Of a DNA stretch of 64,000 nt, positions 58,828 to 59,914 are shown piece after piece; positions within the stretch are counted from its first letter, which is position 1, and each line of letters starts with the position of its first letter. The position numbers and the translations under genes are program-made. The stretch spans positions 1,817,014-1,881,013 of the forward strand of contig NC_021313.1 of assembly GCF_000403645.1 (NCBI RefSeq). Reading direction: 5' to 3'. The DNA comes from Salinarchaeum sp. Harcht-Bsk1. Lineage in GTDB: Archaea > Halobacteriota > Halobacteria > Halobacteriales > Salinarchaeaceae. Below the pieces are notes generated by a model, which was not told the DNA's origin, ran no database searches, and saw only the letters and a list, made by a program, of their open reading frames with translations.

Positions 58828-59709
58828 TCACTCCAGGGCGTCGAAGGTCTTCTCCGCCCACTTCACCGCGAACGGGGCCCCACGATTTCGGTAGGCCTCG
58901 GTGTCCAGCGCCGCGTACGGAGCGGGCAGTTCCAGTGCGTGCTTCACGGCAGCGCAGGCCAGTTCCGCGGCGTCGGGGAAGTCGGTCTCGCCCCGGGCCA
59001 CCTCGCCGGGAAGCCCGTCGAGCCTCCCTTCGAGCCGATCGCCGGCGTCCTGCCATGCGTCGCCGAGCTTGGACAGATCCTCGTCATCGGCGCCGACCCA
59101 TTCCGCGAACACGTCCCGCGTGTGGAGGCCGAGCCAGGCGTCGTACAGCGCCGCCGCGAGCTGGTAGGTTCCCGCCGGATCGAGCGGCGTGGCGTCGGCA
59201 AGCGCCGGGTAGTGCTCCCGGAAGAAGCCGAGGAAGTGTTCGGGCGGCGGGCTCGTGGACGGTGGCGATCCGGGGCCGCCGGTCTCGACAGCGCCGTCGC
59301 CCGACGCTCCCCCGTCCTCGACGCCCGGCACCGAGACATCCAGCCCCAGTTGTACCAGCGCGTGTGCGAGCAGGAAGTCGACGAAGGATTCCGGAGAGCC
59401 CTCGATCCGCGGTTTGACCAGGATCGTCGGCGGCTCGGTCTGGCGCGTCCAGACGACGCTGCCGTCGCCGGGCGCACCGATCGTGAAGTCGCTGCTGGCG
59501 TACTGTTCCAACAGTGCTGGCGAGTCCGGGGGCAGCCACGCCGCCGGGTAGCGATGCGGTTCGAGACGATCGACCAGCAGGCCGAGGTCCTCCGCGACCG
59601 CGGGATCGAGGGTCTCGAAGTCCTGCTCGGTGTCGAGGATCTGGGCGTCGGGAGCGTGGCGCTCGCGGACGGCGGCGACCGGTGCCGACAGCGCGCGCTC
59701 GCTGAACAT
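58828..59709 (-). CDS. Conserved haloarchaeal protein (DUF7089-like)
   Basis: 293 residues, acidic. FSERALSAPVAAVRERHAPDAQILD, DRLEPHRYPAAWLPPDSPALLEQYA, DGSVVWTRQTEPPTILVKPRI, SFVDFLLAHALVQLGLD, LGFFREHYPALADATPL, TYQLAAALYDAWLGLHTRDVFAEW and AELACAAVKHALELPAPYAALDTEAYRNRGAPFAVKWAEKTFDALE are conserved-looking blocks. No motif I can name; all helical, no signal. A Gly/Ser/Pro linker at 133-155 divides two halves. I believe this is DUF7089. Its ATG overlaps the stop of the 28-residue gene upstream (TGATG), so the two are co-translated. Confidence 0.8.
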   Translation of the reverse strand: MFSERALSAPVAAVRERHAPDAQILDTEQDFETLDPAVAEDLGLLVDRLEPHRYPAAWLPPDSPALLEQYASSDFTIGAPGDGSVVWTRQTEPPTILVKPRIEGSPESFVDFLLAHALVQLGLDVSVPGVEDGGASGDGAVETGGPGSPPSTSPPPEHFLGFFREHYPALADATPLDPAGTYQLAAALYDAWLGLHTRDVFAEWVGADDEDLSKLGDAWQDAGDRLEGRLDGLPGEVARGETDFPDAAELACAAVKHALELPAPYAALDTEAYRNRGAPFAVKWAEKTFDALE

Positions 59710-59795
59710 CAGGCGACGTAGACGCCGATCAGCGCAAGCGTCAGGACCGCTGCGATCGCGACCACCGTCAGCACGATCTTCGTGGGCTCGCTCAT
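59709..59795 (-). CDS. 28-residue single-helix membrane peptide
   Basis: The product reads MSEPTKIVLTVV then a hydrophobic run (AIAAVLTLALIGVYVA), a single membrane helix from residue 7 to the end with a charged, probably cytoplasmic, N-terminus. Stop and next start share TGATG, so ribosomes can pass on to the DUF7089-like gene. A TATA-like GTTTCAC is about 27 bases before the ATG. Coding is supported by the coupling, the promoter and the strong hydrophobic bias; it could anchor its downstream partner to the membrane. Confidence 0.65.
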   Translation of the reverse strand: MSEPTKIVLTVVAIAAVLTLALIGVYVA

Positions 59796-59914
59796 GCGAT
59801 TTGGTTGCGTGGGGGTCGTGAAACGCCTTCCGATCGGTCGGGATCGGGCGACGACGTCGACCGCGCACTCGACGGCGACACAACGGCTATGCTGCGAACC
59901 ACCGAAGGGGACGT

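Follow-up and report, generated by a model that had tools for sequence, protein, structure and literature searches.

Introduction

Small single-span subunits or regulators of bacterial membrane complexes, such as those of the CydX, AcrZ and KdpF type, have about 30 residues and one helix, and their genes often adjoin the gene of the partner. In Haloferax, overlapping TGATG and ATGA gene pairs couple translation by termination-reinitiation, and SD motifs help to a variable extent without being essential (PMC6728339). Coupling by short overlaps is nearly abolished by a spacing of about 20 nt, and close pairs encode subunits of a complex in 45% of cases, as against 5.6% of distant pairs (PMC10666635). 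To form extracellular vesicles, H. volcanii needs the arvABC (oapABC) genes, which had earlier been tied to the replication origin by their location; in this species deletion of ArvA lowers and its overexpression raises vesicle output (PMC10927574).

Here a two-gene locus of the haloarchaeon Salinarchaeum sp. Harcht-Bsk1 is described, which lies in a stretch of 64,000 nucleotides of contig NC_021313.1 (the window). It encodes a microprotein of the PF24004 (Microp_archaea) family and a protein of the DUF7089 family (PF23363). Both families are already in Pfam; what is new is that the two are linked almost obligately and in one direction only, together with the promoter of a probably leaderless mRNA and the frequent proximity to arv. 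In the literature searched, no paper was found on the PF24004 family, nor any that ties it to DUF7089.

Organization of the locus

The features are collected in Table 1. The minus strand from 59795 to 59709 translates as MSEPTKIVLTVVAIAAVLTLALIGVYVA followed by a stop codon, the TGA of which (59711-59709) has a single base in common with the ATG of the DUF7089 gene (59709-59707), reading ...GCCTGATGTTC... The pair is isolated in the window, with a divergent gene 119 bp upstream and a cobalamin adenosyltransferase gene converging from downstream. A tie to the window neighbours (cobalamin adenosyltransferase, SppA) was considered and rejected, as among the 78 loci Salinarchaeum laminariae (L005) is the only other one with this arrangement. 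Searches against PHROGs and NCBIfam gave no match, and a scan for sigma-70 promoters and terminators, which is ill-suited to archaea, gave nothing useful.

Table 1. Features of the microprotein–DUF7089 locus, in positions of the window
Feature	Position	Strand	Remarks
Microprotein gene (PF24004 Microp_archaea family), 28 residues, single-helix membrane	59709..59795	-	alone below Pfam cut-off
TGATG: microprotein stop and DUF7089 ATG, one base in common	59707..59711	-	sequence reading; recurs in relatives
DUF7089 protein gene, 293 aa	58828..59709	-	PF23363 profile match; AlphaFold2 mean pLDDT 89.6
GTTTCAC, degenerate TATA-like element, -29 to -23 from microprotein ATG	59818..59824	-	relatives' consensus TTTAA, -30 to -26
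Divergent intergenic region, 119 bp, microprotein to 2-oxoacid dehydrogenase acyltransferase-domain gene (+)	59796..59914	.	

The microprotein

The microprotein consists of one hydrophobic helix, with a mean Kyte-Doolittle value of 2.9 over 19 residues. Against PF24004 it scores 17.5 bits (E 0.0031), below the curated cut-off of 27 bits, and such a gene is easily overlooked, in agreement with the expectation of the first-pass annotation that gene finders miss it. It is assigned to the family because its relatives pass and its sister is 75% identical: PF24004 recognizes each of the 49 aligned relatives at E <= 0.01 (best E 1.3e-16). A profile derived from the alignment A1 finds the window copy at E 3e-10, a value that is optimistic as A1 already contains this copy.

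At DUF7089 loci the homologous peptides start with MS-x-A-T-K-I-V-L.., and the alignment of relatives shows no variation at S2 and T5 and hardly any at K6, V8 and T11. The pooled pN/pS of 23 close pairs is 0.24, which points clearly to purifying selection, although the value is a guide and no formal test, because the pairs have branches in common and are not independent. Positions 11, 15 and 19, which are spaced as in helix-packing motifs, hold G, A, S or T in 96, 100 and 91% of 96 sequences; the window copy has V11, A15 and T19.

The small frame had been proposed as a one-helix peptide gene, and a homologous peptide lies upstream on the same strand at 77/77 evaluable DUF7089 loci (of 78 public loci, L060 stops at a contig edge). 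Together with the pN/pS these homologues rule out a chance open reading frame; sequence comparison thus confirms the 28-aa frame as a real gene, far from what chance similarity would explain.

The DUF7089 protein

The overlapping gene had been called DUF7089-like, and its product matches PF23363 over the full length (profile 1-258 of 258) with 412 bits and E 9e-124, over the cut-off. The AlphaFold2 model is confident (pTM 0.88, besides the pLDDT in Table 1) and needs no transmembrane-like helix; the protein is probably cytosolic. No fold relatives were found in the PDB (best E 1.4) or among viral models (best E 1.2), and a sequence search of the PDB and a search of plasmid records for DUF7089 were also without match. 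A Gly/Ser/Pro-rich insert at about residues 126-155 (59245-59334) is missing from most relatives, and its core, at about residues 133-148, is modelled with low confidence (pLDDT < 50). In one genome (G010:C2:689175-689942) DUF7089 carries one in-frame TAA, and the microprotein there is intact.

Promoter and probable leaderless start

When an archaeal transcript begins at the ATG, its TATA element sits at about -30 to -26. The upstream profile of the peptide ATG has TTTAA at exactly this distance (TTTAA or TTTAT in relatives). In 146/168 sequences, drawn from the partly overlapping sets of public loci and panel genomes, TTTA starts at -32 to -28, compared with 0/168 at a control position. In these 146 sequences the distance from the element to the start codon is thus the roughly 27 nt that a leaderless transcript requires, so the microprotein mRNA is probably leaderless; in the window the element is degenerate. 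A TATA-like box at -27 had been noted from the window, and this holds for most of the relatives; the window copy itself has only the weak GTTTCAC, with a T run at -28 to -26 and a two-base shift from the consensus.

Overlap, spacing and probable translational coupling

In 72 public loci the peptide, always starting with ATG and 28-32 residues long, ends at most 11 nt upstream of DUF7089; the overlap is exactly 1 nt in 54 of these loci, and in 12 the genes abut. In a panel of one genome for each of the 77 DUF7089-bearing genera, the peptide is present in 77/77, within 183 nt in 76/77, at <= 10 nt in 66/77 and with the 1-nt overlap in 42/77. Termination-reinitiation is expected of co-directed genes at about -8 to +10 nt, a range that contains the spacing in the window (-1 nt) and in those 66 genera. 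An SD-like 4-mer precedes the DUF7089 ATG in only 3/87 TGATG cases, so independent SD-driven initiation of DUF7089 is unlikely. Since overlaps of this type couple translation in Haloferax (PMC6728339; PMC10666635), coupling is likely for most of the microprotein–DUF7089 pairs, as had been suggested from the window, and reinitiation at this pair is inferred from the same experiments. A fixed ratio of peptide to DUF7089, also suggested then, can only be inferred, because reinitiation efficiency varies among gene pairs.

The gap exceeds 20 nt in 8/77 genera, where coupling is unlikely by the same experiments and both genes are still kept. At four Halosimplex loci the peptide lies 1.8 kb upstream of DUF7089 with an antisense gene, seen only as an open reading frame, inserted between them; the Halosimplex-like panel genome L169 has an insertion there too (gap about 1.8 kb), and at a single locus of Halomarina the peptide is 42 nt upstream. 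An initial reading of these Halosimplex and Halomarina loci as DUF7089 without the peptide was thereby overturned. A small frame that is missing or broken where DUF7089 stays, which would have counted against the proposed pairing, was thus never encountered: the frame is nowhere broken, and the departures are the insertion (four Halosimplex loci and one panel genome) and the 42-nt gap. At the Halosimplex-type loci L043, L045, L049, L051 and L169, which have the inserted gene, DUF7089 follows an unrelated short frame (MTT.. or MIT..) and has its start in a TGATG.

A leaderless start, a TGATG overlap and the lack of an SD motif are also the expected look of a leader that only delivers ribosomes to DUF7089, with amino acids of no importance. 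Such a role is scarcely credible for a peptide with invariant S2 and T5, near-invariant K6, V8 and T11 and a pN/pS of 0.24, which moreover persists where DUF7089 is gone; a pure leader peptide is rejected on this amino-acid conservation and survival.

Distribution and one-way dependence

Among 392 genomes of the haloarchaeal class, DUF7089 is found in 366 and the peptide in 384 (98%), so that the name of orphan, given to DUF7089 by the first-pass annotation, was too strong for a family near-universal in the class. Both genes are present in 366 genomes, the peptide only in 18 and neither in 8; DUF7089 alone is found in 0, part of which count is due to shared ancestry. The co-occurrence has a Fisher p of 1e-10, uncorrected for phylogeny. 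The genome of Haloferax volcanii matches both families. Outside the class, no convincing homologues were found in 295 genomes across the phylum, with one sub-threshold match (G569, E 0.005). One genome, G303, has two microprotein copies (G303:C20:5489-5575 and G303:C79:20277-20348), with DUF7089 beside only one of them.

DUF7089 appears to need the microprotein, and the 18 peptide-only genomes, set against none with DUF7089 only, argue that the peptide has a role independent of DUF7089 and would function also without it. The suggestion that the peptide is an anchor or regulator for its partner is only partly supported: as its sole purpose this does not fit the 18/392 genomes that keep a conserved peptide alone. 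In genus g30 (L143-L146, L148-L150) a lone microprotein is located elsewhere, mostly near a ribose-phosphate pyrophosphokinase-like gene, and a partner gene is not evident.

It might be supposed that the microprotein has a membrane role of its own, unrelated to DUF7089, and that the pairing reflects co-expression or inertia with no contact between the two. The 18 DUF7089-less genomes in which the microprotein is fully conserved, in several of them as a lone transcript, and the loose spacing in 8/77 genera fit this idea, which nevertheless seems on balance rather unlikely: DUF7089 is never found without the microprotein, the exact overlap is met repeatedly in different families, and genera that lost the common neighbourhood still have the pair intact. 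Another idea is that the pair serves aerobic membrane energetics and DUF7089 is dispensable in anaerobes. Only 4/392 genomes lack COX1 (G001, G007, G093 and G129), and all of them lack DUF7089 (Fisher p 1.5e-5). These four, however, come from no more than two or three lineages, 22 COX1-bearing genomes are also without DUF7089, and two of the four keep the microprotein (G001 and G007 being without it), which makes this idea very improbable.

Genomic neighbourhood

Within 6 kb upstream of the pair, arvA-arvB-arvC (small GTPase, OapB PF09846 and OapC PF09845) is found co-oriented in 51/77 genera, with a gap from arvC to the microprotein down to 84 nt. After the pair, DUF7090 (PF23365, weakly also DUF7504) is found in 60/77 genera, nearly always on the opposite strand. 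In 11/77 genera, including that of the window, both neighbours are absent within 6 kb, and in 10 of these 11 no more than a few bases separate the microprotein from DUF7089, the exception being the Halosimplex-like L169. In L147, L151, L154, L156 and L158, which have no DUF7089, the microprotein stays between arvABC and DUF7090, which suggests a loss of DUF7089 from this position.

These arrangements raise the question of whether the pair has an accessory part in vesicle formation driven by ArvABC (OapABC). Besides the co-orientation and small gaps, the microprotein lies beside arvC in some DUF7089-less genomes (64 nt in L155, 110 nt in L154), and the level of ArvA alters vesicle output in H. 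volcanii (PMC10927574). Against this stands the separate promoter of the microprotein. Moreover, genomes that lack the microprotein still have arvB, which in the window genome is found at a distance of 210 kb from the pair, and the synteny with DUF7090, on the opposite flank, is just as strong, so the cluster may be a mere inherited neighbourhood. An accessory role in vesicle formation is hence doubtful. An obligate location in the arv operon is contradicted by the separate promoter, by the linkage in only 51/77 genera and by the lack of such linkage in the window genome. Inheritance of a common neighbourhood is taken here to explain the arv link, with a functional tie possible.

A model for the pair

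The reading preferred here, to which a probability of roughly 0.5 is given, is that of a self-standing membrane microprotein to which a cytosolic DUF7089 protein is added by termination-reinitiation and docking. The locus would be a two-gene leaderless operon, with a promoter about 27 nt upstream and an mRNA beginning at or beside the microprotein ATG. The microprotein is predicted to span the membrane once, presumably with its N-terminus (S2-T5-K6) inside and a helix over about residues 7-28. Ribosomes ending the microprotein at its TGA would reinitiate at the overlapping ATG to produce DUF7089, whose production would therefore be confined to the places and times at which the microprotein is produced. 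The microprotein would be the self-sufficient partner, and its small residues (11, 15 and 19) suggest helix packing with itself or another membrane protein; DUF7089 would be the accessory one, most likely docking on the microprotein at the inner membrane face. Against this coupled docking stand the 8/77 genera with gaps above 20 nt, in which coupling is expected to fail and both genes are retained. In a broader and unlikely version, the pair would be a nearly universal haloarchaeal membrane module, in which a self-packing microprotein recruits DUF7089 and works with the ArvABC GTPase system in membrane shaping or vesicles.

The conservation of this small membrane protein, about 29 residues long and present in 98% of the genomes, is striking. 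The one-way dependence joins two families of unknown function into a single unit that is testable in Haloferax volcanii, and a first gene of 28 codons that is probably leaderless and joined to the next by TGATG makes an unusually small natural case for the study of termination-reinitiation.

Comparison with known systems

The relatives of the window microprotein in PF24004 (Archaeal microprotein) have equal length and the same N-terminal motif, whereas the window copy differs in scoring under the cut-off; likewise, the DUF7089 protein matches PF23363 in full length but bears an insert that most members lack. The ArvABC/OapABC vesicle operon (PMC10927574) is the usual upstream neighbour of the pair. 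Homology does not make the pair a component of it, and roughly one genus in three, like the window genome, has the two apart. The published TGATG/ATGA reinitiation pairs (PMC6728339; PMC10666635) have the identical 1-nt overlap in the same organism group, and by analogy the present pair is probably coupled as well; its upstream gene, however, has only 28 codons, and an SD-like motif is missing. With the small subunits and regulators of the CydX, AcrZ and KdpF type, to which it is likened by description only, the microprotein has in common a length of about 30 residues, one helix and an adjoining partner gene; those proteins serve membrane complexes, whereas the partner of the haloarchaeal microprotein looks soluble.
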